Shown here piece after piece: positions 5,433 to 36,496 of a stretch of DNA of 36,641 bases (position 1 is the first letter of the stretch; the number at the start of each line of letters is the position of its first letter). Origin of the DNA: a virus; the IMG/VR virus record IMGVR_UViG_3300044225_002348, positions 1-36,641 of that record. One strand, written 5' to 3'. A program made the position numbers and the translations under genes. The notes under the pieces were generated by a model. That model did not search any database. It had not been told where the DNA came from and worked only from the letters and a program-made list of their open reading frames with translations.

Positions 5433-5573
5433 ATGAAACCTGGTCTATATGCCAACATCAATCGGCGCCGCGCCGCCGGCACCAGTCGTTCTAAATCCAA
5501 AAGCACAATTAGCAAAGCTGCCTACGCAAACATGAAGGCAGGCTTTCCAAAGAAAAAGAAGAAAAAAGCCTAG
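5433..5573 (+). CDS. Very small basic protein, poly-Lys tail
   Basis: A 46-residue protein starting MKPGLYANINRRRAAGTS and ending in six lysines and an alanine. The MKPGLYANI start is common to tiny basic proteins of marine podoviruses. The true start is ATG 5433, two bases after the stop of the preceding gene; longer reading in this frame upstream overlaps that gene and is not supported. Its stop lies three bases before the first attachment-site repeat, so it is the last gene of the rightward late cluster. Confidence 0.65.
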   Translation: MKPGLYANINRRRAAGTSRSKSKSTISKAAYANMKAGFPKKKKKKA

Positions 5574-5575
5574 CC

Positions 5576-5616
5576 GGGTCACAAACTTTTTGTGACCCGG
5601 GTCACAGCTGGGTCAC
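5576..5616 (+). repeat. GGGTCAC repeats, left arm of attachment site
   Basis: GGGTCAC lies at 5576-5582, 5599-5605 and 5610-5616, and its complement at 5592-5598. The first part is a perfect hairpin, GGGTCACAAA-CTT-TTTGTGACCC (5576-5598), which may also end transcription from the late genes. The last two copies form a direct pair 11 bp apart (GGGTCAC-N4-GGGTCAC). The same pair sits at 5794-5811 across the tRNA-like core, the expected layout of arm-type binding sites for a tyrosine integrase or its accessory factor. Confidence 0.75.
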
Positions 5617-5624
5617 GTGCCTGA

Positions 5625-5652
5625 CGTAACTGAACGTAACTGGGCGTAACTG
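5625..5652 (+). repeat. Three CGTAACTG direct repeats with 10-bp spacing
   Basis: CGTAACTG occurs at 5625, 5635 and 5645, exactly one per ten bases, so all three face the same side of the helix. This is typical of cooperative binding by an integrase arm domain, excisionase or repressor. They lie between the left GGGTCAC arm and the tRNA-like core. Confidence 0.8.
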
Positions 5653-5722
5653 AAACATTACGTATTGCTTTATGTGGCTTCATGTGGCACATATGGACTT
5701 GTAATGCATCAATGTTTTGACA

Positions 5723-5748
5723 GGTTCGAGTCCCGTCACTCCCGCCAC
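5723..5748 (+). other. attP core: 3' end of a tRNA gene
   Basis: GGTTCGAGTCCCGTCACTCC-CGCCAC has the T-loop (TTCGAGT, 5725-5731), the T-stem 3' side, a 7-base acceptor strand (CACTCCC), discriminator G (5744) and CCA (5745-5747) of a bacterial tRNA. Upstream bases do not complete a cloverleaf, so this is only the 3' piece, as phages carry in order to restore the host tRNA on integration. Discriminator G fits Asp, Ser, Asn or similar; Asp-like is my best guess but weak. The integrase gene lies 170 bp downstream. Confidence 0.8.
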
Positions 5749-5750
5749 GC

Positions 5751-5787
5751 AAGCCATTGTTTTCATTACGAAAGCAATGGTTTTTTT
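5751..5787 (+). terminator. Rho-independent terminator after the tRNA 3' end
   Basis: CCATTG (5754-5759) pairs with CAATGG (5775-5780), extended by TTTT/AAAG pairs around the loop CATTACG, and is followed by seven T (5781-5787). Directly after the tRNA CCA it would end the tRNA transcript once the phage is integrated, and insulates the integrase promoter. Confidence 0.8.
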
Positions 5788-5793
5788 GCGTTT

Positions 5794-5811
5794 GGGTCAC
5801 AAATGGGTCAC
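5794..5811 (+). repeat. GGGTCAC-N4-GGGTCAC, right arm of attachment site
   Basis: Two GGGTCAC copies, at 5794-5800 and 5805-5811, 11 bp apart, same orientation and spacing as the pair at 5599-5616. They flank the tRNA-like core on the integrase side. Confidence 0.75.
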
Positions 5812-5852
5812 AAGAAATGTTAAGTGGGTGCGGGATTTGTCCCTTTCCCGGT

Positions 5853-5899
5853 CTTGATCTTTACGTTAAACGTCAATATATATGTTGTGTAAGATCAAG
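5853..5899 (+). promoter_or_regulatory. Integrase promoter with operator
   Basis: TTGATC (5854-5859), a 17-base spacer and TATATA (5877-5882) form a good sigma-70 promoter ahead of the integrase. The spacer holds the palindrome ACGTTAAACGT (5863-5873), part of CGTTAAACGTCAATA, which matches a site in the cI-cro region with one mismatch. A larger inverted repeat, CTTGATCTTTAC (5853-5864) against GTAAGATCAAG (5889-5899), brackets the promoter and may bind a second protein or fold in the mRNA leader. The ribosome site AAGGG (5901-5905) precedes ATG 5914. Confidence 0.7.
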
Positions 5900-5913
5900 A
5901 AAGGGATACAATC

Positions 5914-7032
5914 ATGGAAATAGATGTAAGCCAATATTCCTCACGTGCTAAGGAAGGCAAAGCCTCTTGGTGCGTTGACACTCGCTCTCTGGTAAACAAT
6001 GGCAAGCAGGAATTTTTCAAAACCAAGGCCGAGGCCAAGGCCTATGCTAAGCACGTTGCAGCCGAGATCAACCCGGCCAGCTCACAGGCCTGGGACTGGA
6101 CCTTTAAGCAGCTGTGCGACAGCTACCTTGCTCACGTACAACAAGAGTTTGACGATGGCGAGATCAAGCGCTCTAACATGCTGGAGAAAAAACGCCACGC
6201 TAGATGCTTTGTTAAGCTAACGCTAGATAACCACAAGCTCACTAGCTACAAGGTGCGTGACCTTACCGCCGGCCAGATCAAGTTGCAGCTGATGAACCAG
6301 CTGAAGAAAAACCGCACAATCAAGACAGTCAAAAACATCATGGGCAATGTACGCCTGATGTTTGATCACGCGATTGATTCTGGTTGTCGTAACAGCAACC
6401 CGGCTCTCGGCGTCAAGGCCAAGGGCGCTAAGGGCGCCGGTAAAGGCTTGGCAGTCAAACCTAACGAAAGCATGATTGACAATGTCATCGCGCATATGAC
6501 GCCTGCATGGCAGCTGCGCGCTGAGTTTGCAGCGACTACTGGATTGCGCCAGGGCGAGCAGCGCGCTCTCTTGTGGGCTGACCTTGTTGACCATGACTTT
6601 AAAAAGGTTGATGTCAACAAAGCAGTCGAGCACCGGGCTGGCGTTGGCGATACAAAGACGCCGGCTGGTAAGCGTAAGGTTCCACTGAAGCCAGACGTAG
6701 CCAAGAAAATGAAAGAGCTGTGGATGGCCGAGGGCCGGCCTATGAAAGGCCTGGTGTTCCCGTCACGCACAGGGCATGTGCTATCAGACAGTAGGTTCCT
6801 GCCGGCCATACACGCTGCCTGCGATGCAGCTGGCGTTGCGCGCATCAGGTGGCACGATCTGCGCCACTACTACGCCTCTAAGCTCTTGCAGAAATTCCCT
6901 GGTGACTGGTGGACTGTCACCAACCTGATGGGCCATGAGAGCATCAAGACAACCACAGAAATTTATGGGCATTGGCTTGAAGATGAAGCCCGTGACCAAG
7001 AGATCGCTGATAAGATGTGGGGGCCTTCCTAA
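5914..7032 (+). CDS. int: Tyrosine-recombinase integrase
   Basis: A 372-residue site-specific recombinase that would insert the phage into the host tRNA gene by the attachment site just upstream. It has an N-terminal arm-binding region (about 1-60), a SAM-like core-binding domain (about 65-165) and the catalytic domain with Arg212 (TTGLRQGEQ), Lys248 (DTKTPAGKRK), His314 and Arg317 (WHDLRHYYAS), His341 (LMGHESIKTT) and the nucleophile Tyr351 (EIYGHW). All catalytic residues are present, so it should be active. ATG 5914 has AAGGG eight bases upstream. The stop overlaps the start of the next gene, so the two are coupled. Confidence 0.95.
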   Translation: MEIDVSQYSSRAKEGKASWCVDTRSLVNNGKQEFFKTKAEAKAYAKHVAAEINPASSQAWDWTFKQLCDSYLAHVQQEFDDGEIKRSNMLEKKRHARCFVKLTLDNHKLTSYKVRDLTAGQIKLQLMNQLKKNRTIKTVKNIMGNVRLMFDHAIDSGCRNSNPALGVKAKGAKGAGKGLAVKPNESMIDNVIAHMTPAWQLRAEFAATTGLRQGEQRALLWADLVDHDFKKVDVNKAVEHRAGVGDTKTPAGKRKVPLKPDVAKKMKELWMAEGRPMKGLVFPSRTGHVLSDSRFLPAIHAACDAAGVARIRWHDLRHYYASKLLQKFPGDWWTVTNLMGHESIKTTTEIYGHWLEDEARDQEIADKMWGPS

Positions 7033-7445
7033 TGGAAACGCGCCTCATAGAAAAGTACCGTGTTGGGGGGGATATCAAAACCCTCGGCGCGCACGAAACC
7101 AGGTGGCAGTTTGGCAACCATGAGATCCGCGTAAGGGTGCGGCGCGGCAACTGGCAGTATTACATGAACGCCAATTCCAGAATATCTGGCTGGAATGGGC
7201 GCAGCTTGGCAGACTTTCCAGAATGGCTGGATGTTCGCTGTCCTACCATGACAGAAGAGCAGCTGCCTGCAGTAGAAGAGTGGATGCGCCAAGAGCTCAC
7301 AGACGACAACGATACCAGAACTTTTGAGGTTTCTAACAAACGCTATTTACCGCGCAGAAAAGAGTTTGTCGGCCAACCGTCTAGGCACTGGCTGCCTGAG
7401 TGCGACAGAGGAAAACCAAATAGAGTGCAAAGCTGGACAGACTAA
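7032..7445 (+). CDS. Hypothetical protein coupled to integrase
   Basis: A 137-residue protein starting at ATG 7032, one base inside the integrase stop. It is rich in Trp and Arg (RWQFGNHEIRVRVRRGNWQYY, SGWNGRSLADFPEWLDVRCP) and ends in a basic, low-order tail. No known domain is recognised. Coupling with the integrase suggests a role in integration, excision control or early lysogeny, but this is inference only. Confidence 0.6.
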   Translation: METRLIEKYRVGGDIKTLGAHETRWQFGNHEIRVRVRRGNWQYYMNANSRISGWNGRSLADFPEWLDVRCPTMTEEQLPAVEEWMRQELTDDNDTRTFEVSNKRYLPRRKEFVGQPSRHWLPECDRGKPNRVQSWTD

Positions 7446-7450
7446 TGAGC

Positions 7451-7503
7451 GGGGGAGCAAAAGTAGGCCATTTTATGTACTGGCCGGGCAAACTTGCTCC
7501 CCC
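7451..7503. other. Nested inverted repeat between convergent operons
   Basis: GGGGGAGCAA (7451-7460) is perfectly complementary to TTGCTCCCCC (7494-7503), and inside it GGCCA (7466-7470) pairs with TGGCC (7481-7485). It lies in the 106-bp gap where the integrase transcript and the leftward operon meet. There is no T-run after it, so it may be a bidirectional terminator, a structured RNA or a binding site. Nothing else is visible in the gap. Confidence 0.6.
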
Positions 7504-7551
7504 TATGGCGCGCTGTCGCTGATACAGAAACTACACGCGCCAATCTAAAAA

Positions 7552-7749
7552 TTAATCGTCATCAAACATTGCCGGGCCAAACTCGGACTGCAGCGTGTCA
7601 CGTTTTAGATACCAGCTGCGCCCAATATGCACGACAGGCAAATCCATTGCCTTGACCAGGCGGCGCGTCCTTTGCTGAGCCGCTTTGTGGTCGTCACCCC
7701 AGAGCACACGGCTGGCCTCAGCAACGGTATATAAATATTTACCATCCAT
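7552..7749 (-). CDS. Small winged-helix protein, excisionase candidate
   Basis: A 65-residue protein with a MerR/excisionase-like helix-turn-helix: YLYTVAEASRVLWG at the start, a basic recognition region (QQRTRRLVKAM) and the wing VVHIGRSWYLKRDTLQ. Proteins of this size and fold act as recombination directionality factors or small DNA binders. It is the last gene of the leftward operon, facing the integrase. A transcription-regulator role is an equal alternative. The gene starts inside the end of the preceding one (about 11 bases overlap). Confidence 0.6.
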   Translation of the reverse strand: MDGKYLYTVAEASRVLWGDDHKAAQQRTRRLVKAMDLPVVHIGRSWYLKRDTLQSEFGPAMFDDD

Positions 7750-8095
7750 TACCGCCTACCTCTTGCCGCTGTTCTTGCTGCTGTTCTTTGCGCTTATTTA
7801 CGTAGACTTTGCCGGTCATAATCTTTGGCAGATTCTTGAGCTCTGTTTCACCAGGCATTTGTTTCTGGAACACAAAGCCAATCTCAACGCCGGCCTCGGC
7901 CATTTGTGCATGAAAGTCATCACAGATCTTTTGTTGCGAATCTGTCATTCGCTCATATCTGCCGGCATCGTCATCCCAATTTGTTTTAAATTGAATAAAC
8001 ATAGACGCCCGGTATTCGACCTTTTGACCAGCTGCATCCTCGGCGATCATGTTCTGCCGCAGCTTGATACTATTGTTTGAAAAATGAGCCATCAT
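7739..8095 (-). CDS. Hypothetical protein of recombination operon
   Basis: A 118-residue protein (MMAHFSNNSIKLRQNMIAEDA...) with an ordered N-terminal two thirds and a Gln/Glu-rich low-complexity tail ending GGNGW. Its start overlaps the stop of the annealing-protein candidate by four bases, so they are translated together. I do not recognise the family. A single-stranded-DNA-binding or annealing partner is conceivable from context only. A start one codon downstream is equally possible. Confidence 0.6.
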   Translation of the reverse strand: MMAHFSNNSIKLRQNMIAEDAAGQKVEYRASMFIQFKTNWDDDAGRYERMTDSQQKICDDFHAQMAEAGVEIGFVFQKQMPGETELKNLPKIMTGKVYVNKRKEQQQEQRQEVGGNGW

Positions 8096-8781
8096 CTCTC
8101 TCCATTGTTTAGTTTGTCATATTTGGCTGAGTAGTAATCTCTAAGCTCAGCAGTGAGCTCGCGGCTAAATTCATGTAGATCACCACGTTTTTTACGGGTG
8201 CGATTTGCCCAGCCTGTGCAGGCACCAATGCTATCGGCCTCATCTATCAAGCCTTTTTGCTTTGTCACCCATTGCGCCCACATATCCTCATGATCAAACG
8301 GGATCTCGTCAGATGGCGGCGGCGTTGCTGTTTCTTTTTTAGGTGCGCCCGATATATTGTCCTTGTCTGACGCTTCACGTGCCAGACGGGCCTGCTCAAT
8401 TTTGAAATCCTCGGCTTCCTCGTTTGAGTAAACATCACCAGACACCTCAATGAGCTTGAGGATCACGCGGTCTTTTGCGCGCTTCTCTGCCATAGCGTAG
8501 GGGTAGCCGTTTTTATTGTTGTACGGAGCCGCCTCGCCAATCGACCATTCGACCTTTTCGCCGAGCCGGCCAGTCACCAGCATGACGACAGTTTTTGTCT
8601 GCGCGTCACTTTCGATAACCGATGGCTCATCAAAGGTGATATTGAGGTGAGCTGCAACACGCTCCAAGGATTTGTGATTCACCACAGGCGTATTGTTTTG
8701 CGGCAAGTACCACACAGCCTCGTCCGAGGTGATGCCCATATCCTTGAACAAAGCGACCAGTTTCTCAGGAATTTTCCGCAT
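8092..8781 (-). CDS. Rad52-like single-strand annealing protein candidate
   Basis: A 229-residue protein. The N-terminal 125 residues hold the pattern W-LP...VNHKSLERVAAHLNITFDEP...VVMLVTGRLG...WSIGEAAPYNN...YPYAMAEKRAKDRVILKL, typical of a conserved family in alphaproteobacterial prophages whose fold I believe is Rad52-like; then a GDVYSNEEAEDF motif and a charged, flexible C-terminal part. Annealing proteins pair single strands made by a phage exonuclease; an exonuclease is encoded two genes upstream in the same operon, which supports the role. The fold assignment is from memory of the family, not from a catalytic motif. Confidence 0.6.
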   Translation of the reverse strand: MRKIPEKLVALFKDMGITSDEAVWYLPQNNTPVVNHKSLERVAAHLNITFDEPSVIESDAQTKTVVMLVTGRLGEKVEWSIGEAAPYNNKNGYPYAMAEKRAKDRVILKLIEVSGDVYSNEEAEDFKIEQARLAREASDKDNISGAPKKETATPPPSDEIPFDHEDMWAQWVTKQKGLIDEADSIGACTGWANRTRKKRGDLHEFSRELTAELRDYYSAKYDKLNNGER

Positions 8782-8795
8782 CAGGAATGATCTCC

Positions 8796-9161
8796 CTATT
8801 TGTCATAGATGCCCTCCAGTAGCTCGCGTCCAGCTGGGGTGATCTCCCACACAATCTCTTGCCGGCCACGATAATTGGTGGCGCGCCTGCCGCTATCGAC
8901 AGCGAGGCCCATGCGGCATAGCTCGGTGATCCTCGGCTTGACGCTATATTCATACGCCCTCACACTGCGAACAACCTGGGTACTGCTTAGGCCAGACGGG
9001 GCTGCGGCGAGGCTTTGCAGGGCTGATAGCCGTAGTCCCGTTACTTTGACTGCTATAAACTCAGCGGCCTGCCGCTCAGTATCTTTGGCGTTTTTATGCA
9101 CGTTAGGGCCAGGGTCACCGGGCCAGTCTAAAAGATCTGCTTGCATCATTTTCACTTCCAT
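8796..9161 (-). CDS. Winged-helix DNA-binding protein
   Basis: A 121-residue protein whose residues about 42-118 look like a MarR-type winged helix: GLRLSALQSLAAAPSGLSST, then SVKPRITELCRMGLAVDSG (recognition helix and wing) and a C-terminal WEITPAGRELLEGI strand-helix. It could be a transcription regulator or, in a genome with no other candidate, a replication-related DNA binder. ATG 9161 lies inside the end of the small membrane-peptide gene; ATG 9149, after GGAAG, is also possible and would give MMQADLLDWPG as the start. Confidence 0.65.
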   Translation of the reverse strand: MEVKMMQADLLDWPGDPGPNVHKNAKDTERQAAEFIAVKVTGLRLSALQSLAAAPSGLSSTQVVRSVRAYEYSVKPRITELCRMGLAVDSGRRATNYRGRQEIVWEITPAGRELLEGIYDK

Positions 9162-9268
9162 AGTGTTGGATCAGGGAAAACTAAGACGAGCATGGCGCAC
9201 ACCATTCCCATCATTAGTACGAAAAGTATTGTTGCGAAAATCTCGCGTATCCATTCCCACATTGTCAT
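9152..9268 (-). CDS. 38-residue single-span membrane peptide
   Basis: Starts MTMWEWIREIF, then a strongly hydrophobic stretch of about 22 residues (ATILFVLMMGMVCAMLVLVF) and ends PDPTLWK. The start codon overlaps the exonuclease stop (ATGA) and the stop falls inside the start region of the next gene, so translational coupling on both sides supports it as a real gene despite its size. A single-span peptide in a recombination operon is unexpected; a role in superinfection exclusion or membrane signalling is only a guess. Confidence 0.6.
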   Translation of the reverse strand: MTMWEWIREIFATILFVLMMGMVCAMLVLVFPDPTLWK

Positions 9269-10212
9269 ATCAACCCCCATGTCCTTTTGGCTTCATCCAG
9301 ATATGCCGGCGATTCGTTCCAGCACAGCAGGGACCAGTCTGGTGAGACCATGCCCAACAGCTCGTCCTTAGTGCTGGCTGCCCTGAGGATGTTTTCGGTT
9401 GTTTTGTGATAGTGCTGAATGTCTTGGACGACATCAGCGAGGAAATCGTCACGCAGCTCAGGCGCGTTATCCGGCGTGAACAGCACATAGTCAGTTGTGC
9501 TGGCATACAAGATAAAGGGTGGCTGGCGACCATTCAGAGCCCAGAAACCGGCAGCCTGGTAGACAGAGTTCATCTCCCACATGCCGGACAGTTTTTTAGG
9601 CGCTGAAACGCTACTCCACCCAGATTTTGTCTTGGCTGGCTTTGACCATTTTGTCTTGAGGTCTCCGCGCCGCACATAATCAGGGCGAGTGTTATGAGGT
9701 AATGCATTACCGGGCAGCGTATCCATCAGGGCAATCTCGCCCAGGATGCGGTTCTCCCGTGCCATAGCTTCCCGCAGGCCGGCTATGGCATTGTCTATGA
9801 CTAGCGGCAGCTCTTCTAGATATTTGCTTTTCTTAATCTCATCAGTGCCATTGTCCCAGCTGATCGGCCTATAGGCCTTTAGCTTATCTATAGCTGCCTG
9901 CTTGGCCTCTTCTACCGAGGTGGTCTTGCCTTCCTTGTCAGGCACCAGGACCATGTCAGTGGCCAGCTGCGTTGCAACGCCGGAAGCCATGTTTGCTGAG
10001 CCGGTATTGAAATACAGCGTGTCGAGGATCTCACGCGCTCTAGCGCGATCAGCCGGGTCTGCCTGTGGTGATTTGAGGATTTGGAAAGCCCAGTCAACCA
10101 ATATTCTGACGTGGGTTTTTTCGTAAATCGCTTTTGCGCGATCTTTGGATTTTGGGTTTGAGTGCCAGAAATAGTGATGCCTGGCAGACCAGTCGGGTGT
10201 TTCAAGTAACAT
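9265..10212 (-). CDS. PD-(D/E)XK exonuclease (RecB/YqaJ-like)
   Basis: A 315-residue nuclease. The active-site pattern is visible: Glu159 (LGEI), Asp178 in RPDYVRRG, then Asp184-Leu-Lys186 (GDLKTKW) and a helix with Gln219 (VYQAAGFWAL), as in RecB-, Cas4- and lambda-exonuclease-like enzymes. It would degrade one strand of double-stranded ends for recombination by the annealing candidate encoded downstream. First gene of the leftward operon, with ribosome site GGAGAGG just upstream, partly inside a small hairpin. A catalytically active enzyme is likely; substrate polarity cannot be read. Confidence 0.75.
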   Translation of the reverse strand: MLLETPDWSARHHYFWHSNPKSKDRAKAIYEKTHVRILVDWAFQILKSPQADPADRARAREILDTLYFNTGSANMASGVATQLATDMVLVPDKEGKTTSVEEAKQAAIDKLKAYRPISWDNGTDEIKKSKYLEELPLVIDNAIAGLREAMARENRILGEIALMDTLPGNALPHNTRPDYVRRGDLKTKWSKPAKTKSGWSSVSAPKKLSGMWEMNSVYQAAGFWALNGRQPPFILYASTTDYVLFTPDNAPELRDDFLADVVQDIQHYHKTTENILRAASTKDELLGMVSPDWSLLCWNESPAYLDEAKRTWGLI

Positions 10213-10218
10213 GATAAG

Positions 10219-10236
10219 CCTCTCCGTTACGAGAGA
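10219..10236 (-). promoter_or_regulatory. Hairpin covering exonuclease ribosome site
   Basis: On the minus strand CTCTC (10235-10231) can pair with GAGAG (10224-10220), which belongs to the ribosome site GGAGAGG ahead of ATG 10212. The short stem could damp translation of the exonuclease. Confidence 0.4.
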
Positions 10237-10247
10237 AGCTATATCAC

Positions 10248-10264
10248 TTTACGTAATACGTAAA
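10248..10264. promoter_or_regulatory. 17-bp perfect palindrome, operator for leftward operon
   Basis: TTTACGTAATACGTAAA is a perfect palindrome about one centre base. It lies 36 bp upstream of the exonuclease start and just after the repressor stop, where the leftward operon must have its promoter; TTTACG within it can serve as a minus-strand -35 with a weak -10 near TAGCTT. It probably binds the repressor or the Cro-like protein, though it differs from the CGTTWAACG sites. Confidence 0.6.
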
Positions 10265-10273
10265 CCCTATTTC

Positions 10274-11053
10274 TTATTTTGCCTCATTACTTATTTTTAA
10301 AAGCGTATCTGTTTCCAGATCAGCCCAGACAACCCCATGAAATTCTGGCTGCTCGATCATTACGATTCCTGGCGATGCCCATTTAATTTTTAGGTTTGTG
10401 TAATTTCCAAAATAATGCGACTCCATTGAATAGGTATTGCGGCCTGACTGGTAAAGGATGCCATAAAGCAATTCATTATTATAGGTCATTGCACAGCAAT
10501 ATTTGCCGAGCGCCCTGGCATCGACTGTGCTGGTAACAACTGGGTTTCTTGGCATCAGGCTGATCATGCCGTGCAGCCAGCTGCTTTTGTGGTCCTCTAG
10601 CCCTTTTAAATCCCAGTAGACTGCCATCATATCGTCAGCAAAATAGTCGTGCATATAAACGGCCTTGTTTGCGTATTTCTGTGATCGTCCGGTGGTCCAC
10701 ATATGTGACAAAATTAAAGGCGGGTTTTTGCCGTTATCACCACCAAGCATAATCGACCCGTGATCCTTACAATATTTTGTGGAATCCTCTTGCCATTTAT
10801 TTGCCACTGCTAGGATAGGTATTGGCGGGTTGGCAAAAAATATCTCCATTGTTTTGCATTTAAGGATTTTGGCATAATCCTCAGCATCAGACAGGCTGAT
10901 GGCGATATCGCCGGATTTATGGCGTGACAAAGTGCCGGGCTGGACACCCTTGAGCTCTGCTACCATCTGGTTTTTGAGGCCAGACTTGACCACCATTTTA
11001 TGTAAGTTATTAGGTGCCACCGAGATATCCGCGCTAGTTTGATTTGTTACCAT
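10274..11053 (-). CDS. cI-like repressor with degenerate S24-type C-terminus
   Basis: A 259-residue protein. Residues about 27-66 form a Cro/cI-type helix-turn-helix (GLKNQMVAELKGVQPGTLSR). The C-terminal half has the strand order of LexA/cI S24 domains, ending GKYCCAMTYNNELLYGIL, then SMESHYFGNYTNLKIKWA. The catalytic lysine expected in that penultimate region is not there and no convincing Ser motif is seen, so RecA-triggered self-cleavage may be lost. ATG 11053 has AAAGG upstream and is preferred over TTG 11080, which sits in the operator. Divergent from the Cro-like gene, it should maintain lysogeny. Confidence 0.72.
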   Translation of the reverse strand: MVTNQTSADISVAPNNLHKMVVKSGLKNQMVAELKGVQPGTLSRHKSGDIAISLSDAEDYAKILKCKTMEIFFANPPIPILAVANKWQEDSTKYCKDHGSIMLGGDNGKNPPLILSHMWTTGRSQKYANKAVYMHDYFADDMMAVYWDLKGLEDHKSSWLHGMISLMPRNPVVTSTVDARALGKYCCAMTYNNELLYGILYQSGRNTYSMESHYFGNYTNLKIKWASPGIVMIEQPEFHGVVWADLETDTLLKISNEAK

Positions 11054-11147
11054 TGTCGTGCCTTTGTCGTTTAACGTCAATAATCTTGTACAGTTAAATT
11101 GCTTTACGGATTAAGTCAAGTACATTACAGTCTGCTGAATATTACTT
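11054..11147. promoter_or_regulatory. cI-cro intergenic switch region
   Basis: Holds CGTTTAACGTCAATA (11068-11082), which matches the integrase-promoter site with one mismatch at the palindrome centre, so it is a likely operator. Rightward: TTGTAC (11086-11091), 17 bases, GATTAA (11109-11114) is a moderate promoter for the Cro-like gene. Leftward: TTGACT (complement of 11114-11119) is a good -35 for the repressor but its -10 is poor. Related half-sites CTTGTAC and CAAGTACAT lie in opposite orientation in the middle. Confidence 0.65.
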
Positions 11148-11375
11148 ATGCGGATTGTGTACATGCTATTGAACGACTATAGGCTTAAGAAGGGCTGGCA
11201 CTATACGGATTTAGCCCGTCTGGTTGGTGTAAAACACGCCACGATCGTGCGGCGTTGGTGCTTGCCGCATGGTGACAAGGACCGGCTGATACCTCGCGCC
11301 GACAACATGGATAAGATCATTTTGCTGACCAATGGAGAGGTCATGCCGAATGATTTTTACATGCGCCGTGACTGA
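11148..11375 (+). CDS. Cro-like helix-turn-helix protein
   Basis: A 75-residue DNA-binding protein with YRLKKGWHYTDLARLVGVKH as helices 1-3 of a helix-turn-helix and the C-terminal VMPNDFY typical of Cro/YdaS-type phage regulators. It is transcribed divergently from the repressor across a 94-bp switch and heads the rightward early operon, so it should favour the lytic state. ATG 11163 is an alternative start five codons in. The stop is overlapped by the next gene. Confidence 0.75.
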   Translation: MRIVYMLLNDYRLKKGWHYTDLARLVGVKHATIVRRWCLPHGDKDRLIPRADNMDKIILLTNGEVMPNDFYMRRD

Positions 11376-11739
11376 GGATGAGCTGCAAATCCAGGTAGCC
11401 AGCTGGTTGCCTTTCGCTTTGCCGCCGGGCTGTGTCTTTCATCATTCGCCTAACGAAGGCACCCGCCACGTTGCGTTCAAAACAAAGATCAAGCGTATGG
11501 GTACTAAGTTTGGCTGGCCTGACCTTGAGATTTTTGTCCCAGCTGATCAGTCCAGGACTGGCCTCAGCTCGGCGATATTCATTGAGCTAAAACGCATGAA
11601 GAGTGGCCGGCTCAACGACAATCAAAAGACCATGCGTGACGCCCTGCTTGATGCTGGGGCGCATTGGGGCATGGCTCGGTCACTTGATGAGGTCCATGAG
11701 ATCCTGGCGCCCCTGGTCAAGCTGAGGGCAGGGCCATGA
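11368..11739 (+). CDS. VRR-NUC family nuclease
   Basis: A 123-residue PD-(D/E)XK-type nuclease of the VRR-NUC family, common as a stand-alone phage protein and possibly cutting branched DNA. Key residues are visible: HHSPNEG with the conserved Asn-Glu, KRMGTKFGWPDLEIF with Asp52, IELKR with Glu73 and Lys75, and LNDNQKTMRDALLDAGAHWG. The GTG 11368 start gives the usual short TEDELQIQVASWL beginning and overlaps the Cro-like gene by eight bases; ATG 11332 in the same frame is possible but overlaps it by 44. Confidence 0.82.
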   Translation: MTEDELQIQVASWLPFALPPGCVFHHSPNEGTRHVAFKTKIKRMGTKFGWPDLEIFVPADQSRTGLSSAIFIELKRMKSGRLNDNQKTMRDALLDAGAHWGMARSLDEVHEILAPLVKLRAGP

Positions 11740-12113
11740 TGCGTATCTGCGATTTCAAAAATCATTACACACGCTGCAAAAAAGGCTGGGTGTACATGCC
11801 TGATGGCATGGGCTGCGTCCAGTCTGAGCTGTGTCCGAAATGCGATGGAGAGGGACAAATACCCATGAAGGATGAAGAGCAAGACGAGCTGCTGAAATCA
11901 CGCAAGCCACATGGCTACCAGTATTATCAGACATTCGCTGTGACGCTGCATGTGACATACGCCAAGAGCTACACAATCCGAGCGATGAACGATGAACACG
12001 CTATGGACATAGCCGCGCGCCGGGTTGCGAAGCGTCACAAGCACACTGACAACAAGGGCTTGGGGTTTGTAAAGGCTGTCCCCGTGGACGCCAAGCGTTT
12101 GGGCAAAGGCTAA
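11736..12113 (+). CDS. Hypothetical protein with zinc-binding cysteines
   Basis: A 125-residue protein. Its first half carries Cys5, Cys14 and a CPKCDGEGQI knuckle (about residues 33-42), the DnaJ-like CxxCxGxG pattern, so it probably binds zinc. The second half is a small alpha/beta region (YYQTFAVTLHVTYAKSYTIRA...HAMDIAARRVAKRH), which looks like a phage accessory domain of unknown role. It overlaps the nuclease stop by four bases and abuts the methyltransferase start. Confidence 0.65.
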   Translation: MMRICDFKNHYTRCKKGWVYMPDGMGCVQSELCPKCDGEGQIPMKDEEQDELLKSRKPHGYQYYQTFAVTLHVTYAKSYTIRAMNDEHAMDIAARRVAKRHKHTDNKGLGFVKAVPVDAKRLGKG

Positions 12114-12629
12114 ATGACCAGGCAGAAAGATGACTGGTATCCAACGCCTCACACAGCAATCAAGAGCCTGCTGGATGTTGAGGTGTTTGACCCTGTTATC
12201 TGGGAGCCGGCAGCTGGTGACGGGGCTATATCCAAGGTGCTGGAGCTGGCCTGCTATGAGGTCGTTAGCCAGGATCTGAACGACTATGGCTATTGTCCTG
12301 CCGGCTATGATTTTCTGATGGCGACAGAGCGTGAGGCTGACTGCCTGGTAACGAACCCCCCATATAAGCTCGCTCAGCAGTTTATCGAACATGCCATAGG
12401 GCTTGGCGTCAAGAAACATGCCTGGCTGCTGCGCTTGAGCTTCCTAGAGGGGCGGGGGCGGTTCCTGGAGCTATTTGATAATTACCCACCATCACGAATC
12501 CATGTGTTCTCTAAGCGCCTGACAATTTGGAGGGGCGGCGAGGCGCCAGCTGGCACCGGCACGACTGCATATGCGTGGTTCGTGTGGAACGCCAACTACA
12601 ACGGCGTGCCGCAGCTGGGCTGGCTATGA
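12114..12629 (+). CDS. DNA adenine-N6 methyltransferase
   Basis: A 171-residue enzyme: AdoMet-binding motif EPAAGDGAI from residue 31 and catalytic NPPY at 81-84, the marks of amino-DNA methyltransferases, with DWYPTPHTAIKSLL at the start as in phage Dam-like proteins. It would methylate adenine in phage DNA, protecting from restriction or marking DNA for packaging or expression. No partner restriction enzyme is nearby, so it is an orphan. It lacks a separate large recognition domain; its target sequence cannot be read. Confidence 0.82.
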   Translation: MTRQKDDWYPTPHTAIKSLLDVEVFDPVIWEPAAGDGAISKVLELACYEVVSQDLNDYGYCPAGYDFLMATEREADCLVTNPPYKLAQQFIEHAIGLGVKKHAWLLRLSFLEGRGRFLELFDNYPPSRIHVFSKRLTIWRGGEAPAGTGTTAYAWFVWNANYNGVPQLGWL

Positions 12630-12871
12630 AGAAAAAGAAACGCGGAAGCGCATATGCTGATTTTCTCAGGAGGCGAAACGGGCATATGCCAGCACCAAGA
12701 CAAACAGAACCAGAGCCATGTGTTGTTTGCGGCGCCATGCACCAGCTGCACATGGGAACCTGGATCATGACAGCCAACAAGGATCTGCTTTGTGCAAATG
12801 ATCGTTGCTGGCGCATTGCAGTAGAAAGGGAAAAAGATGGGAAAGCGACACAAGATGTCATGGACAGATGA
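12626..12871 (+). CDS. Small zinc-ribbon-like protein
   Basis: An 81-residue protein starting MKKKKRGSAYADFLRRR, with CVVCGAMHQ and LLCANDRCW giving two cysteine pairs that could bind zinc. ATG 12626 overlaps the methyltransferase stop by four bases, which fixes the start. Function unknown; small zinc proteins of early phage operons are often host-takeover or transcription factors. Confidence 0.65.
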   Translation: MKKKKRGSAYADFLRRRNGHMPAPRQTEPEPCVVCGAMHQLHMGTWIMTANKDLLCANDRCWRIAVEREKDGKATQDVMDR

Positions 12872-13016
12872 GCGGCGACAAGCTCAATCGGAGCGGCTCA
12901 AGAAGGCCTGGGCTGACAAAAAGGCCAGGAAGGATCTGCAGGCCTGGCACGATATTGGTGGCAAGACAGATCCCTGGTGGAAGCCCATTTTTAATTTATT
13001 CCGTAAAGGGGCTTGA
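12837..13016 (+). CDS. Small basic protein
   Basis: A 59-residue, strongly basic helical protein: MGKRHKMSWTDERRQAQSER, then KKAWADKKARKDLQ and DPWWKPIFNLFRKGA at the end. A good ribosome site (AAAGGG, six bases before ATG 12837) and a position overlapping the preceding gene by 35 bases support it over the other frame. The charge suggests DNA or RNA binding. It overlaps no recognised motif of another gene. Confidence 0.62.
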   Translation: MGKRHKMSWTDERRQAQSERLKKAWADKKARKDLQAWHDIGGKTDPWWKPIFNLFRKGA

Positions 13017-13022
13017 CAGAAA

Positions 13023-13361
13023 ATGGAAAGTAAAAATAAAATCGGCGCAGCCGCGCTAGATTCTAAGCTACCCAGAGCTCAGCAAACAAAGCTCAGCGAC
13101 AACCCAATAATAAATAACTTACTGAAAAGCACTGCCAAGCAAACAAGCTATGCTTATAGCTCAGCTATAGCCAGAGCTAAGCTATCGCCGCTTGATGAGC
13201 TTCAGCGCAGGGTTTTTAAGAGGCTCAGGCCCATGTATGGCTCTGATCGTTACATGGAATTGCAGAACCAGGTCAGCGCATTAGCGCCGCTGGAACGCCA
13301 AGACTGGCTCAATGACATGCAGGACAAGCTCAATGCAGTTAAGCAGGCTAACAATAGCTGA
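13023..13361 (+). CDS. Hypothetical early protein
   Basis: A 112-residue basic, helical protein (KIGAAALDSKLPRAQQTKLS near the start, LDELQRRVFKRLRPMYG in the middle, APLERQDWLNDMQDKLNAV near the end). No family recognised. It overlaps the next gene by 29 bases. A TTGACA at its start is the preceding gene's stop context and is unlikely to be a promoter. Confidence 0.6.
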   Translation: MESKNKIGAAALDSKLPRAQQTKLSDNPIINNLLKSTAKQTSYAYSSAIARAKLSPLDELQRRVFKRLRPMYGSDRYMELQNQVSALAPLERQDWLNDMQDKLNAVKQANNS

Positions 13362-13731
13362 GCTTGACGAGCTCTTCATGGAAGCAGCTGAGACAGAGCG
13401 CAAGCTGCCAGCTGCAATGCGTAAACAGAAAATGTCCGGGTGGCCTGACTATCCCAGGGACTATGCAGCCTATGGCTATAATGCTTTTGAGGTGCCAATG
13501 CTCAAGGCAACGCCCGATCAGGTTAGCCGTTACGATGCAGCATTGAACCTGGTGCTTACCAAGCTAGATGAAGAGGACAGGCGCCTCGTGTGGGCTGTGG
13601 CAGCCTCAGCTGCGTATAGGCAGCGAGGGCCGCGCTGGACAAAGCTGGCGGTCATACTGGGCTTAAATGACCCTAGAATCGTTAAGCAAAAATACAAAGA
13701 TGCACTAATACGGTTATATTATATGCTTTAA
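13333..13731 (+). CDS. DUF6362-like protein, sigma-region-4-like helix-turn-helix
   Basis: A 132-residue protein: AAETERKLPAAM, a WPDYP region, then DEEDRRLVWAVAASAAYRQR and RWTKLAVILGLNDPRIVKQK ending in a terminal helix. This order (R-LP, WP, R-lVWA-A-A, WK-IA-x3-G) matches what I know as DUF6362, small phage proteins often placed just before the terminase genes and with a C-terminal helix-turn-helix. It may activate late transcription. ATG 13333 is chosen because the earlier in-frame ATG lies deeper in the preceding gene. Confidence 0.68.
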   Translation: MQLSRLTIAELDELFMEAAETERKLPAAMRKQKMSGWPDYPRDYAAYGYNAFEVPMLKATPDQVSRYDAALNLVLTKLDEEDRRLVWAVAASAAYRQRGPRWTKLAVILGLNDPRIVKQKYKDALIRLYYML

Positions 13732-13743
13732 ACGTAAAGACTA

Positions 13744-13773
13744 TTGACGCGAATGTACCAAATCTGGTACTGC
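13744..13773 (+). promoter_or_regulatory. Candidate late promoter with palindromic operator
   Basis: TTGACG (13744-13749) is a good -35; the best -10, TACTGC (13768-13773) at 18 bases, is weak and may need an activator. The perfect inverted repeat GTACCA-AATC-TGGTAC (13755-13770) covers spacer and -10. The complement of the -35 region reads CGTCAATA, the same octamer as at the integrase and cI-cro sites. Confidence 0.55.
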
Positions 13774-13937
13774 AAAAGATAGCATCGACTATATGTCGCT
13801 GTTAAATGAACTGCGGTTCATTCGCTGCATGGTTGGACCCTCTGTTGTAAAGGGACTGACGCATTGTTTCTTCCCTAACGAAACCTTACCGGCTGTCTGT
13901 TGTTTTATGCGAGCAACAGGCAGCTGGGCTTTTATGG
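13774..13937 (+). other. Structured leader or small RNA upstream of terminase genes
   Basis: No convincing gene. AATGAAC-TGCG-GTTCATT (13805-13822) is a perfect 7-bp hairpin. CCGGCTGTCTGTTG (13889-13902) pairs with CAACAGGCAGCTGG (13914-13927), 14 bp with two G-U pairs, and is followed by GCTTTT eleven bases before the small-terminase ATG. It could be an attenuator, a small RNA with its terminator, or a fold controlling terminase translation. A 52-codon open frame (13793-13951) also exists here. Confidence 0.55.
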
Positions 13938-14357
13938 ATGGCAATGGCTAAGAGACGCATCACCAAAGCTCAGATGACGATTATCTGTGAGCGTATTGCT
14001 GACGGAATCAGTCTGACAAGGATCTGCAACGAGGACAGTGAGCTGCCATCGTGGAGGACAGTGCTGCGCCATGTTCAAGAGGATGAGGATGCTTACACAA
14101 GCTATAGGACAGCCAGGTCATTGCAGTGTGAGGTCATGCGTGACCAGATCATTGACCTGGTCGAGGCACCGTTGCCAAGCGATCCTAAGCTAGCAATGGC
14201 TGAGGTACAGCGTAGAAGGTTAGAGGCAGATCATAAGGACAAGCACATAAGGCAGATGCAGCCACTGGGGCTAAGAGACAAGGCTGAGGACAGCAAGCAG
14301 ACGAGCGGGACGATCACGCTGAGCTGGGGCAATGCTGACGTGCAGGCTAGTGGTTGA
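13938..14357 (+). CDS. terS: Terminase small subunit
   Basis: A 139-residue DNA-recognition subunit of the packaging motor. It has an N-terminal helix-turn-helix (ITKAQMTIICERIADGISLT, SWRTVLRHVQ), a helical oligomerisation part (SYRTARSLQCEVMRDQIIDL, AEVQRRRLEADHKDKH) and a C-terminal tail likely to touch the large subunit. Length and order fit the TerS-like family of podoviruses. Two starts are possible, ATG 13938 and ATG 13944; no strong ribosome site is seen, and the hairpin just upstream may limit access. Confidence 0.82.
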   Translation: MAMAKRRITKAQMTIICERIADGISLTRICNEDSELPSWRTVLRHVQEDEDAYTSYRTARSLQCEVMRDQIIDLVEAPLPSDPKLAMAEVQRRRLEADHKDKHIRQMQPLGLRDKAEDSKQTSGTITLSWGNADVQASG

Positions 14358-14440
14358 GTGGTGCAGTGCTGTCATCCAGTGGCAGGGCTCGCGCGCACGA
14401 GGCATATGTCAACCTGATTTTAGTTTACAAAGCTGATCTT

Positions 14441-14458
14441 GTGACCGAGCTGTGACCC
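14441..14458 (-). repeat. Inverted copy of attachment-arm element
   Basis: The complement reads GGGTCACAGCTCGGTCAC, a 17/18 match to 5599-5616. It sits in the 252-bp gap between the small and large terminase genes, where no gene is visible. See also the 15-bp repeat at 14487. Confidence 0.75.
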
Positions 14459-14486
14459 AGCGCTCTGTAATGCCCGGCTAGCCTAC

Positions 14487-14501
14487 AAGTGGGTGCGGGA
14501 T
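14487..14501 (+). repeat. 15-bp repeat shared with integrase upstream region
   Basis: AAGTGGGTGCGGGAT is identical to 5822-5836, which lies 11 bp after the right attachment arm. Together with the arm-like element at 14441 it shows that two pieces of the attachment region recur ahead of the large terminase gene. The rest of 14358-14609 holds nothing recognisable. Confidence 0.75.
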
Positions 14502-14609
14502 ACATACCCGTTTGCAATGTCTCGATTTCCTGGCGACCACCCCCGGCCCCCCAAAAGACCGGGCGCTGTGTCTATAACGTATATAAACCCTGACAAGAGC
14601 CTGTCTCTA

Positions 14610-15893
14610 ATGAACATCGAAATCCCCTATTCCCCAAGGCCGCTGCAGGCTCAGATCCACTCTGAGCTATCCGAGAAGCGCTGGGGCGTAGTCGTGCTAC
14701 ACCGCCGAGCTGGCAAGACAGTCATGGCTATCAATCACTTGCTAAGGGAGGCTGTGCTTAACCAGCATACGAACCCTCGCTGTGCTTACATAGCGCCGAC
14801 CTATCGGCAGGCCAAGGCTGTTGCCTGGGACTACCTCAAGCAGTTCGCCGGCAAGATACCGATGGTTCGCTTCCATGAGACTGAGCTGCGGTGTGACTTG
14901 CCCAATGGTGCAAGGATACAGCTGCTAGGTGCTGAAAATCCAGATTCACTCCGTGGAATCTACCTGGATATGGCCGTTCTTGATGAGATGGCTGACATGC
15001 CGGAGAGTTTGTTTCCTGAGATCATCAGGCCGGCGCTGAGCGATCGTAAGGGCAAGGCGCTGTTCATTGGTACACCCAAGGGCCACAACGCCTTCTATGA
15101 GCTTTATACGGCTGCTGAGAGCCAGGACGACTGGTACACGGCGATCCATAAGGCTAGTGAGACTGGCATATTGGATGCAGAAGAGCTGGATGCTGCCAGG
15201 TCCATGATGTCAGCCGACCAGTACCAGCAGGAATTTGAGTGCTCATGGGTGGCTAATGTGCCAGGTGCTGTTTTCGGCAAAGAGCTGCAGCAGATCCAGG
15301 AAATGGGGCGCATCAGCAGTGTGCCATATGACCCGGCATACACGGTTGATACCTGGTGGGATCTGGGCATAGGCGATAGCACGGCGATCTGGTTTACCCA
15401 AAGCGTTGGCCGGGCTGTGCATGTGATCGACTTTTACGAGAACAGGGGCGAGGGCTTGCCCCATTACGCTGCTGTTTTGCAGCAAAAAGAATATTTGTAT
15501 GGGAGCCATAACGCGCCGCATGACATTGAGGTCAGAGAGTTGGGCAGTGGCAAGAGCCGGCGGGAGGTATCCTGGGATCTAGGGATAAATTTTAGGGTGG
15601 TTCCAAAGCTGCCTGTCGAGGATGGGCTCCATGCTGCACAGATGCTTATACCACGCTGCTGGTTTGATAAAGAGCTCACAAAACCGGGGCTCGAAGCCTT
15701 ACGACAGTATCACCGAGCCTACAATGAAAGACTTAGAAGTTTTCGTAATACCCCTGTTCACGATTGGTCGTCACATGCTGCGGATGCTTTTCGTTATTTG
15801 GCGGTTGGTATCAAGGACGCCAGGGCAACCGATAGACCCCCGCAAGCATTTGCGGATTCGCACTATAACCCACTTGGATATGTAGGAGCTTAA
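14610..15893 (+). CDS. terL: Terminase large subunit
   Basis: A 427-residue packaging ATPase and nuclease. Walker A is LHRRAGKT (residues 30-37), Walker B is MAVLDEMAD with Asp125-Glu126, followed by a coupling motif region (ALFIGTPKGHN). The C-terminal nuclease starts with DTWWDLGIGD and continues to HDWSSHAADAFRYLAVG, both typical of Terminase_6-type large subunits. ATG 14610 is preferred because it gives the usual NIEIPYSPRPLQAQIH start; the open frame reaches back to GTG 14493, but that stretch is Pro-rich and overlaps repeats of the attachment region. Confidence 0.93.
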   Translation: MNIEIPYSPRPLQAQIHSELSEKRWGVVVLHRRAGKTVMAINHLLREAVLNQHTNPRCAYIAPTYRQAKAVAWDYLKQFAGKIPMVRFHETELRCDLPNGARIQLLGAENPDSLRGIYLDMAVLDEMADMPESLFPEIIRPALSDRKGKALFIGTPKGHNAFYELYTAAESQDDWYTAIHKASETGILDAEELDAARSMMSADQYQQEFECSWVANVPGAVFGKELQQIQEMGRISSVPYDPAYTVDTWWDLGIGDSTAIWFTQSVGRAVHVIDFYENRGEGLPHYAAVLQQKEYLYGSHNAPHDIEVRELGSGKSRREVSWDLGINFRVVPKLPVEDGLHAAQMLIPRCWFDKELTKPGLEALRQYHRAYNERLRSFRNTPVHDWSSHAADAFRYLAVGIKDARATDRPPQAFADSHYNPLGYVGA

Positions 15894-33629: not shown

Positions 33630-36202
33630 CAGTATCAAGCACCGCAAATAAAGTTAGCTATTCTGGCAACGGGTCTTTGGACACCTTTGCCTATACCTTC
33701 AAGATATTTGCCGACAGTGATCTGAAGGTCTTTATCAGGACTAGCGCCGGCACAGAGACGCTAAAAACGATCAGCACCCACTACACGGTTACTAATGCCG
33801 GGGTGGCTACTGGCGGCAATGTCGTTTTCACCTCAGGCAATATACCGGCCAGCGGCGAGACTGTTGTTATCCAGCGTGAGCTTACGCTGACACAAGGCAC
33901 CGACTACGTTGAGAATGACCCGTTCCCGGCGCAGAGCCATGAGGATGCGCTTGACCGGCTAACCTTTGTCACCCAGCAGATGCAGGAAGAGCTGGACAGA
34001 TCTATCAAAGCATCTGTGACAAACACCATTACAAACTCTGAGTTTACAGTGTCAGCCACAGACCGGGCCAACAAGGTCTTTGCGTTTGATGCATCTGGGA
34101 ATCTATCTGTCACCCAGGAGCTCGGCACGAACAGAGGGGATTGGGCAGCATCGACAAGCTATGCTGTGCGCGACCTGGTCAAAGACACTAGCACTGGCAA
34201 TATCTTTTTTGTAAATGAGGCACACACAAGCTCTGGCTCACAGCCCCTGACAACTAACGCCAACAGCGCTAAATACGACCTGATTGTTGATGCTGCGTCT
34301 GCGACCACAAGCGCGTCAGCTGCGGCGTCAAGCGCTACTGCAGCCGCATCCAGTGCCTCAACGGCATCAACCCAGGCATCCAATGCCTCGACCAGCGCAT
34401 CAACATCTTCAACCCAGGCATCAAATGCGGCATCATCTGCCACGGCAGCGGCGTCATCTGCTACTGCCGCCGCCGCATCAGCCACCTCTGCGGCAGCCTC
34501 GCTGGATGCTTTCGATGATAATTACTTAGGGGCAAAGTCTAGTGATCCAAGCACCGACAACGATGGTGATGCCCTTACCGCTGGTGACTTGTACTTTAAT
34601 ACATCAAGCAATGTCTTAAAGGTGTACAACGGTTCAGCGTGGCAGGAAGCTACTTTGGTTACGACTGCCACCACGGCAGAGCTGAACATCATGGATGGCG
34701 ACACCTCTGCGTCATCCACCACTGTGGCAGACGCTGACCGTGTCGTATTCAACGATGCTGGCACCATGAAGCAAGTGGCAGTCACAGACCTGGCTGCCTA
34801 CTTTGATGATGAAATCACCGCCATGCCTAACCTTGTTACAACAGGCGCACTAAATTCTGGCAGCATCACAAGCGGCTTTGGCGCGATAGACAACGGTTCT
34901 AGCAATATCACCACGACAGGCGTTGGAACATTCGGCTCACTGGATATTAGCGGAGACATTGACGTGGACGGCACCACAAACCTAGATGTCGTAGACATTG
35001 ATGGTGCTGTTGATATGGCGTCCACATTGCAAGTCGACGGCGCAATAACATCATCTGCTGGCGCAACAATCACTACTGCCGATAACACTGCACAGCTTAC
35101 TATAAAATCTACGGACGCAGATGCAAGTGGTGGTCCTTTTATAGATTTAATAAGAGACAGCAGCAGCCCTGCGGCCAATGATATTGTAGGTTTACTTAGA
35201 TTCCGTAATGATAATTCAGCAGGAGACGTACACACTTACGGTTTAATCCAGTCAAAAATCTTAGATGCTACTGATGGCAGTGAAGATATGGGGCTGGAAA
35301 TAACAATGAATAAAGATGGCACGAATCGTAGCAGAATAGAGTGTCTTGCTGCCGAAACTGTGTTTAATGAGGATAGTGTAGACCTAGACTTCCGTGTTGA
35401 GTCCAACGGCAACGCTAACATGCTGGTTGTGGATGCGGGTAATGATAAAGTCGGCATTGGGACTAACGTCCCAGCAAACAAATTATCTGTGGTTGGTGGA
35501 GATTTTGGAACACTCCTTCTAGATAACGCTAACTCATCTCACGGAACACAAATTCTTTTTCAAGCAAATGGCACAGCCAACACAGGTGGTGACATTCAGA
35601 TGTCTGATGCTGGCGGTATGAAGATTAGAACGCTTGCAGTTGAACCAATTACACTTGCTACTTCTGCGTCCGCTGGTTCTCCTGCTAATGTGCTTGTTCT
35701 TGGAACAAATAAAGATGTGACTGTTAGCGACGGCGACCTTGTGATTGGCACAAGTGGTCATGGCATTAGTTTTGCTGCAACCGGTGATGCTAGTGGCGCG
35801 ACCAGTGAACTTCTTGACGACTATGAAGAAGGCACTTGGACTCCAGTGTTAACAACAAGTTCTGGAACTCCTGCTACTTATGGCACACAACAGATAGGAA
35901 AATATGTAAAAATTGGTGATTTGGTACACATTTATTTTGATATTGCAATCAACCAAGTAAACAACAGTAATACAACTCTTGTTTCTGGACATCCTTTCAA
36001 TTCAGTAAATAACGACGCACTGGCAGTTAGTTTCTTTAGCACTTTGGCTGTCAGTCCCGTGTTTGTACAGTTTCAATCTGTTGGGTCAAGTGGTTTCATG
36101 GCCGTCGGCCTGACAAGCGCAGGGACAAACATTACCAACGGGCTTGGAATATTCGGAAATAGCGCAAGAATAATAGCAAGTGGCACTTACAGAACAGCAT
36201 AG
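33626..36202 (+). CDS. Tail fibre, T7 gp17-type N-terminus (allele 2 tip)
   Basis: An 858-residue fibre. Residues about 3-130 are the T7 gp17-like tail-attachment domain (ANKVSYSGNGSLDTFAYTFK, QGTDYVENDPFPAQSHEDAL). About 225-290 is an Ala/Ser/Thr-rich stalk, then YLGAKSSDPSTDNDGDALTA and a shaft (from 349) shared with the window start. After about residue 474 it departs from the other copy: no YadA repeats and no S74 domain. The last part (735-858) starts YEEGTWTPVL, a C-terminal domain seen in many phage fibres. It should bind the host receptor. Confidence 0.9.
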   Translation: MTVSSTANKVSYSGNGSLDTFAYTFKIFADSDLKVFIRTSAGTETLKTISTHYTVTNAGVATGGNVVFTSGNIPASGETVVIQRELTLTQGTDYVENDPFPAQSHEDALDRLTFVTQQMQEELDRSIKASVTNTITNSEFTVSATDRANKVFAFDASGNLSVTQELGTNRGDWAASTSYAVRDLVKDTSTGNIFFVNEAHTSSGSQPLTTNANSAKYDLIVDAASATTSASAAASSATAAASSASTASTQASNASTSASTSSTQASNAASSATAAASSATAAAASATSAAASLDAFDDNYLGAKSSDPSTDNDGDALTAGDLYFNTSSNVLKVYNGSAWQEATLVTTATTAELNIMDGDTSASSTTVADADRVVFNDAGTMKQVAVTDLAAYFDDEITAMPNLVTTGALNSGSITSGFGAIDNGSSNITTTGVGTFGSLDISGDIDVDGTTNLDVVDIDGAVDMASTLQVDGAITSSAGATITTADNTAQLTIKSTDADASGGPFIDLIRDSSSPAANDIVGLLRFRNDNSAGDVHTYGLIQSKILDATDGSEDMGLEITMNKDGTNRSRIECLAAETVFNEDSVDLDFRVESNGNANMLVVDAGNDKVGIGTNVPANKLSVVGGDFGTLLLDNANSSHGTQILFQANGTANTGGDIQMSDAGGMKIRTLAVEPITLATSASAGSPANVLVLGTNKDVTVSDGDLVIGTSGHGISFAATGDASGATSELLDDYEEGTWTPVLTTSSGTPATYGTQQIGKYVKIGDLVHIYFDIAINQVNNSNTTLVSGHPFNSVNNDALAVSFFSTLAVSPVFVQFQSVGSSGFMAVGLTSAGTNITNGLGIFGNSARIIASGTYRTA
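34670..35047 (+). repeat. Diverged repeat of fibre shaft, copy 2
   Basis: Partner of 23-400. Third-position differences dominate, so both copies have been kept as functional protein. Beyond 35047 the two fibre tips are unrelated. Confidence 0.9.
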
Positions 36203-36211
36203 GAGACTGAT

Positions 36212-36490: not shown

Positions 36491-36496
36491 TTAAAG

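Follow-up and report, generated by a model that had tools for sequence, protein, structure and literature searches.

The stretch of DNA analysed here (the window) is an IMG/VR virus record of 36,641 bases from a podovirus-like phage. Its large terminase subunit (TerL, 14610..15893, plus strand) is HTVC010P-like, sharing 56.7% identity with the TerL of Pelagibacter phage HTVC010P. The gene for the small terminase subunit, terS (13938..14357, plus strand; phrog_1482, 6.9e-18), precedes it, and the window also encodes the head-tail adaptor family phrog_332 and a tyrosine integrase of 372 aa (5914..7032, plus strand; phrog_1, 1.7e-51; PF00589, 2.9e-18). The phage is temperate, belongs to a group of marine phages and is related to HTVC010P. 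A nucleotide search among deposited phages returned a single weak match, Venkman. A minus-strand ORF at 10274-11080 weakly matches phage transcriptional repressors (phrog_4, 3.2e-4).

At the ends of the window, 2744-2846 is identical to 36539-36641 and approximately 23-290 closely matches 34670-34937; 1-2846 and 34648-36641 hold two alternative tail-fibre gene ends with common flanks. This arrangement suggests an assembly bubble, opened up in the contig, in a circular map of approximately 33.8 kb that has two tail-fibre alleles.

The attachment site in front of the integrase gene

Upstream of the integrase gene lies an attP in which arm repeats flank, on either side, a stretch identical to the 3' end of tRNA-Asp (5723..5747, plus strand; host genome match and ARAGORN). 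The left (P) tandem arm-type sites, recognised from the sequence as GGGTCAC-N4-GGGTCAC, are at 5599..5616 and the right (P') ones at 5794..5811, both on the plus strand. The core, ACAGG-TTCGAGT-CCCGT (5720..5736, plus strand), corresponds to the T-arm of tRNA-Asp by sequence and host tRNA match. The host tRNA 3' end was present in 17 of 58 alphaproteobacterial genomes, and ARAGORN called tRNA-Asp(gtc) in all three loci read. For the attP of a further group (the C group; G022, G039 and G041), a matching host tRNA was found in none of 142 genomes.

The P side also carries an inverted pair of arm-type sites, GGGTCACA...TGTGACCC (5576..5598), and similar inverted pairs are found in the attP of G012, G025, G042 and G043. 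This pair forms a hairpin right behind the upstream ORF, the stop codon of which is near 5573, and may also serve as a terminator. At 5624-5655, in the span from the left arm to the core, CGTAACTG occurs three times as direct repeats approximately 11 bp apart, possibly the sites of an excision or bending factor.

Elements in the gap between terS and terL

With the ATG at 14610 taken as the TerL start, the terS-terL gap (14358-14609) is 252 bp long. An earlier note on this DNA had reported that the reverse complement of 14441-14458, GGGTCACAGCTCGGTCAC, matches the left arm at 5599-5616 at 17/18 positions, and that a 15-mer, AAGTGGGTGCGGGAT, is present at both 5822-5836 and 14487-14501. We confirmed the first match, and the second is exact at both places. 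The gap thus contains two arm-type sites (14441..14458, minus strand), assigned by the match to the left arm and by covariation, that are inverted relative to the P' arm of attP. Missed in the earlier note was an inverted repeat of 5+7+5 bases, GCGGG-ATACATA-CCCGT (14495..14511, plus strand), that begins 36 bp past the gap arm repeats. Its half-sites are those of the host tRNA-Asp T-stem, GCGGG/CCCGT, and we refer to it as the gap core-type site. The gap copy of the 15-mer (plus strand) overlaps its left half-site.

Two further conserved elements flank these sites. A CGCGCGCACGA-type motif after terS (14389..14401) may be a signal for packaging or expression. A similar motif lies approximately 184-262 bases upstream of TerL in most relatives of the integrase type and the dif type (see below), or farther where a small ORF intervenes, and it is a candidate packaging signal. 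A C-rich tract (14537..14552, plus strand) is also found in HTVC010P, Lederberg and HTVC204P. An Rfam scan of 5500-15000 gave no match.

Dinucleotide shuffling of the gap (2000 times) never gave an arm match better than 15/18, which was reached once, or an exact string in common with 5576-5913 that was longer than 13. When 714 window stretches of 252 bp were scanned (step 50; stretches over attP excluded), an arm match of at least 15/18 or a shared string of at least 12 was seen only over the terS-terL gap. Plain chance was therefore rejected as the source of the gap matches. GGGTCAC occurs singly 13 times in the window, and the tandem GGGTCAC-N4-GGGTCAC (at most one mismatch) only three times, as the left arm, the right arm and the gap sites. 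Thus, pairs of this kind are not scattered through the genome, and the two elements are kept together in close relatives; either scatter or absence from relatives would have spoken against the earlier reading. The 15-bp exact pair is unremarkable window-wide, as several other pairs of at least 15 exist, and it matters because of where its two copies are located and because it recurs in relatives.

Arm-type units in the gap track attP

The form of the gap repeat is fixed in many relatives: two units approximately 11 bp apart, with letters that vary by phage while the paired units agree. With attP units and T-stem halves read by eye, and G038 and G030 (no unit) omitted from the arm comparison, the phage's own attP unit was present twice, inverted and 11-12 bp apart, in its own gap at 15-16/16 in 10 of 13 lineages. 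The window scored 15/16. Seven different units are represented, counting as one that shared by G012, G016 and G042 and as another that shared by the window and G043. The highest score among 390 shuffles was 12/16, and cross-lineage comparisons gave at most 14 unless the units were alike.

The attP and gap units are the same in G025 (GGCGCCTA), G008 (GCATGCC), G016 and G012 (both GCATCACA); for G025, G008 and G016 the attP was first located via the gap motif, so these comparisons were not blind. The gap units of G042 (TGTGATGC), G043/G044 (TGTGACC) and G045 (TTTGGCACA) are each carried by the phage's own attP, and in G042, G043 and G045 the gap was read before attP. The integrases of these phages are 83-91% identical to that of G025, yet their gaps contain three other units. 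For G047 and G048 the reading was made in the opposite order, attP before gap, and the attP units recur behind terS, with extra genes standing between the gap and terL. No matching arms were found in the gaps of the C group (9-11/16), and no gap arms were seen in G038.

The close relatives L213, L214, L217 and L220 switch arm units while the first 60 integrase residues vary. As arm units switch and attP and gap stay matched, these loci make up a natural series in which the choice of DNA by the arm domain can be tested. As the repeats follow the attP arms, a cosB-like repeat bound by TerS is not needed to account for them.

The core-type site copies the tRNA T-stem

Among the 14 lineages in which a tRNA attP was recognised, 11 have a 5-7-5 dyad that starts 113-116 bases before TerL and matches the phage's own T-stem at 8-10/10 positions. 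In the window, the gap half-sites are identical to the host T-stem GCGGG...CCCGT of 16 of the 17 tRNA-Asp genes found, including the unpaired G-T, and it is the left half-site of attP, ACAGG, that is unlike the GCGGG of the gap. The best core score in shuffled gaps was usually 6-7; 8 was reached in approximately 1/9, 9 in approximately 1/100 and 10 in at most 3/3000 per stem class. Single core scores of 8 are accordingly weak alone, and the fixed place adds weight. Perfect 5-bp repeats at this place in 56 distinct gaps are spaced by 7 in 17, by 5 in 15 and by 9 in 11, so the 7-bp spacing, although the most frequent, is only moderate evidence alone. The exceptions are G008, the half-sites of which are in another register (GTAGG-N4-CCTAC), and G047 and G048, which have arms with no clear core in the gap.

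The 15-mer is best read as part of the same pattern. Its copy at attP (5822..5836, plus strand) includes GCGGG at 5830-5834, past the P' arm and before the integrase gene, and would be an additional core-type half-site close to the promoter of the integrase gene. Lineage-specific half-sites stand at the same spot in five other lineages. In G012, the half-site and its outer flank have their own letters, GGGCGCGGGAT, at both places; the others have GTAGGATT (G016), GTTACGAG (G022), TTACGAG (G039) and CTACGAG (G041). The resemblance is weak in G025 and G008. As core half-sites occupy that spot beside attP in several lineages, we rejected the 15-mer as a separate element for another protein.

The proposal in the earlier note that the same protein acts at attP and at the packaging genes is strongly supported, as arm units and core half-sites covary across lineages. 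That protein is most likely the integrase and not a host factor: the gap is, very probably, a second site of the phage's own integrase, which would bind the arm-type and core-type sequences common to attP and the gap. What the covariation indicates is a common binder rather than catalysis.

That the gap sites are functionless remnants, either decayed old attachment sites or those of a satellite once integrated there, is highly improbable. Some lineages do retain arms alone or a core alone, and the core of G016 resembles its own tRNA core in inverted orientation. However, in many lineages the present specificity of attP is reflected in both arms and core, with the core at a fixed distance from TerL, and relics would not follow new arm units.

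The spacer sets the gap site apart from attP

Compared in the same orientation, the gap spacer and the attP overlap agree at 1-4/7 positions across lineages and at 2/7 in the window. In G016 the inverted comparison gives 6/7, so attP and the gap may recombine in that phage. Among near relatives the spacer drifts (ATACATA, ATACACA, ATGCACA, ATACGTA). Of the features of an attachment site, the window gap has the cognate core half-sites and the arm repeats, and lacks identity of the overlap to attP or, in the 385 genomes searched (see below), to a host attB.

These observations bear on whether the gap is an alternative attP. Under that explanation, the relatives with a dif-like site described below integrate at the host dif via XerCD, as IMEX phages do, and the integrase-type phages integrate, or once did, at another host site via the gap core. 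There is precedent in the filamentous phages and the alphaproteobacterial phage Jorvik, for which integration through a dif-like attP is reported (PMC5357621, PMC3025954, PMC10589892). It would also fit that the dif-type records are without an integrase and that a tRNA attP was not found in G030. Against it, a search of 385 alphaproteobacterial genomes with the window gap core returned no exact match and six with one mismatch, vs two for the reversed pattern; among these genomes, a host integration site for this core was thus not found. Furthermore, a drifting spacer is unlike an attachment overlap, and among eight genome matches no host prophage was seen split at the gap. We consider this explanation doubtful.

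A clade with a shortened integrase

In G028, G030, G031, G034, G054 and locus L209, the integrase is 355 aa long and starts at the second domain of its full-length relatives. An in-frame stop is found just upstream of the shortened gene in G030, and the five G records have evidently lost the integrase N-terminus. A tRNA T-arm attP was not found across the whole of G030, nor in the 1.5 kb upstream of the gene in L207, L208 and L209, and this clade may use a non-tRNA attP. Its gap showed no arm repeats. The gap core, AGCGG-TA(T/A)CTAA-CCGAT, is kept in the five clade records with TerL; the 30-kb G030 record has the inner pattern of this core, GCGG-N7-CCG, at a single further place. The core begins 135 bases before TerL in this clade and 113 in L069.

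dif-like sites in relatives without an integrase

The 400 bases upstream of TerL were scanned with the pattern NTCGCATAAN6TTATGTTAAAT (19 fixed positions). In 14 of 81 relatives, the terS-terL gap contains a dif-like (XerCD) site, consisting of a XerC half, a 6-bp centre and a XerD half, that scores 15-19/19; all other gaps score at most 13. In shuffles (20 per gap), 15 was reached twice and never exceeded. The sites occur in both orientations, and the CGCGCGCACGA-like element and the C-rich tract flank both site types. Window-type gaps (L010-L013) score 11-12, which is at shuffle level. Among the dif-type relatives, one has a gene for an Erf-like protein that anneals ssDNA (L045:2903-3694).

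The integrase gene was present in 9/9 integrase-type records (G001, G012, G015, G022, G028, G030, G031, G034 and G038) and 0/5 dif-type records (G003, G004, G013, G020 and G021) that span the integrase locus (Fisher p=0.0005), under a rule for spanning that was set after the integrase results had been seen and with spans derived by hand from coordinates. In a TerL tree of 81 rows, with type labels assigned by hand (L026 as integrase-type) and the integrase-type L033 dropped by the length filter, 50 rows are integrase-type, 14 are dif-type and 17 are neither or cut off. Five of these 17 are contigs that end before the gap (L014, L020, L058, L071 and L076), and the others are without a gap before TerL or without either site. 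At least four changes between integrase-type and dif-type are needed on this tree, in which the dif-type clades L019/L021/L022/L023 and L034/L035 are nested in integrase-type clades.

On the host side, the strict dif pattern was absent from one Rhodobacterales genome. With at most one mismatch it was found in 14 of 190 alphaproteobacteria, and the centres are unlike those in the phages. The dif of Dinoroseobacter has been described (PMC7901474).

What the integrase would do at the gap

The earlier note had offered a packaging signal, transcription control or a host factor site as roles for the gap elements. None of these is the best fit, as the swap for a dif-like site points to recombination, and a packaging or regulatory role may still apply. 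One such role is that of a regulator or roadblock, in which the integrase, on binding the gap, would repress terL or stop terminase at a pac or cos close by, and so spare a genome bound for integration from cutting or packaging. The site is flanked by conserved non-coding motifs directly before terL, core half-sites also precede the integrase gene in several lineages, as in autoregulation, and binding would tolerate the arms-only and core-only versions that exist. By itself, however, this role leaves unexplained the dif-like XerCD site in the gap of integrase-less relatives, as well as the fixed place of a core with both half-sites. It seems unlikely to us.

We lean, by a little, towards self-recombination near the packaging start, of the Cre/lox or dif kind, as the job of the gap site. 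The integrase would bind the arm-type repeats and a core-type site that copies the tRNA T-stem around a private 7-bp spacer. The site would then recombine with a copy of itself, either in a second genome or at the opposite end of one that is terminally redundant. Because its spacer does not match, attP and the host tRNA would not be partners in this reaction. If the analogy with P1 applies, packaged DNA would have the site in its terminal repeat, given the position next to the packaging start. Circularisation of incoming genomes and resolution of multimers could then be carried out by the integrase and, in relatives that lack it, by the XerCD of the host. Three points lead us to favour circularisation or multimer resolution. 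Site-specific recombination is the sole thing that host XerCD has in common with a phage integrase, a private spacer would shield the site from attP, and the terminase genes are next to it.

A broader reading, which we put forward tentatively and without holding it to be the probable one, is that in temperate HTVC010P-like marine phages the integrase has two uses: lysogeny, at attP, and the circularisation and resolution of genomes, at a lox-like site that adjoins the packaging start and is insulated. Of the two, the second would be the more conserved. It would outlive attP and the arm domain, and phages that lose the integrase altogether would take up a dif-like site and rely on the XerCD of the host. 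If this is true, the integrase gains a genome-maintenance job at the packaging locus, and the circularisation of such phages is explained. The gap repeats would also serve as a sequence marker that predicts the attP arms and the tRNA T-stem used.

Comparison with known systems

In P1, Cre acts on identical loxP copies near pac, circularises terminally redundant DNA and resolves dimers. The arrangement proposed here from sequence is alike in that a tyrosine recombinase would act on one site near the packaging start, and the gap site, as seen in the window, adjoins the terminase genes. Cre is, however, dedicated and not used to integrate, whereas here the attP integrase would do both, and relatives of the window phage swap the site for a dif-like one. 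The dif-type relatives resemble the host XerCD/dif system and IMEX phages in their XerC half, 6-bp centre and XerD half, whereas the window has an integrase-specific core with a 7-bp spacer, and IMEX phages integrate through their sites. An attP of the lambda type has arm-type and core-type sites. The window gap, in which a core of two half-sites has tandem arm sites to one side, is like an attL-type half, and differs in its place at the terminase genes and in a spacer unlike the attP overlap.

In a literature search of titles and abstract starts, we recognised no paper that places an integrase or dif site at the terminase gap of a phage, and in a text search of 5.39 million papers, XerCD, terminase, attP and dif site were never found together in one paper. 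Freshwater HTVC010P-related phages are reported without an integrase (PMC6811365), and a distant phage family is reported with integrases (PMC11288001). MEP301, a distantly related OM43 phage, is reported as a circular assembly and called circularly permuted or terminally repeated (PMC8024684).

In TerL, HTVC010P-type pelagiphages resemble the window phage, with 50-57% identity over the 20 matches listed. HTVC010P itself differs in having no PF00589 integrase, and neither type of gap site was recognised in it. In five pelagiphage isolates (L155 and L255-L258), the best dif-like score was 11-13, which equals background. Of 10 pelagiphage isolates, some lytic ones (L256, L258, L259 and L260) have GATAA-N6/7-TTATC palindromes in the matching gap, which are perhaps SAR11 Xer sites.
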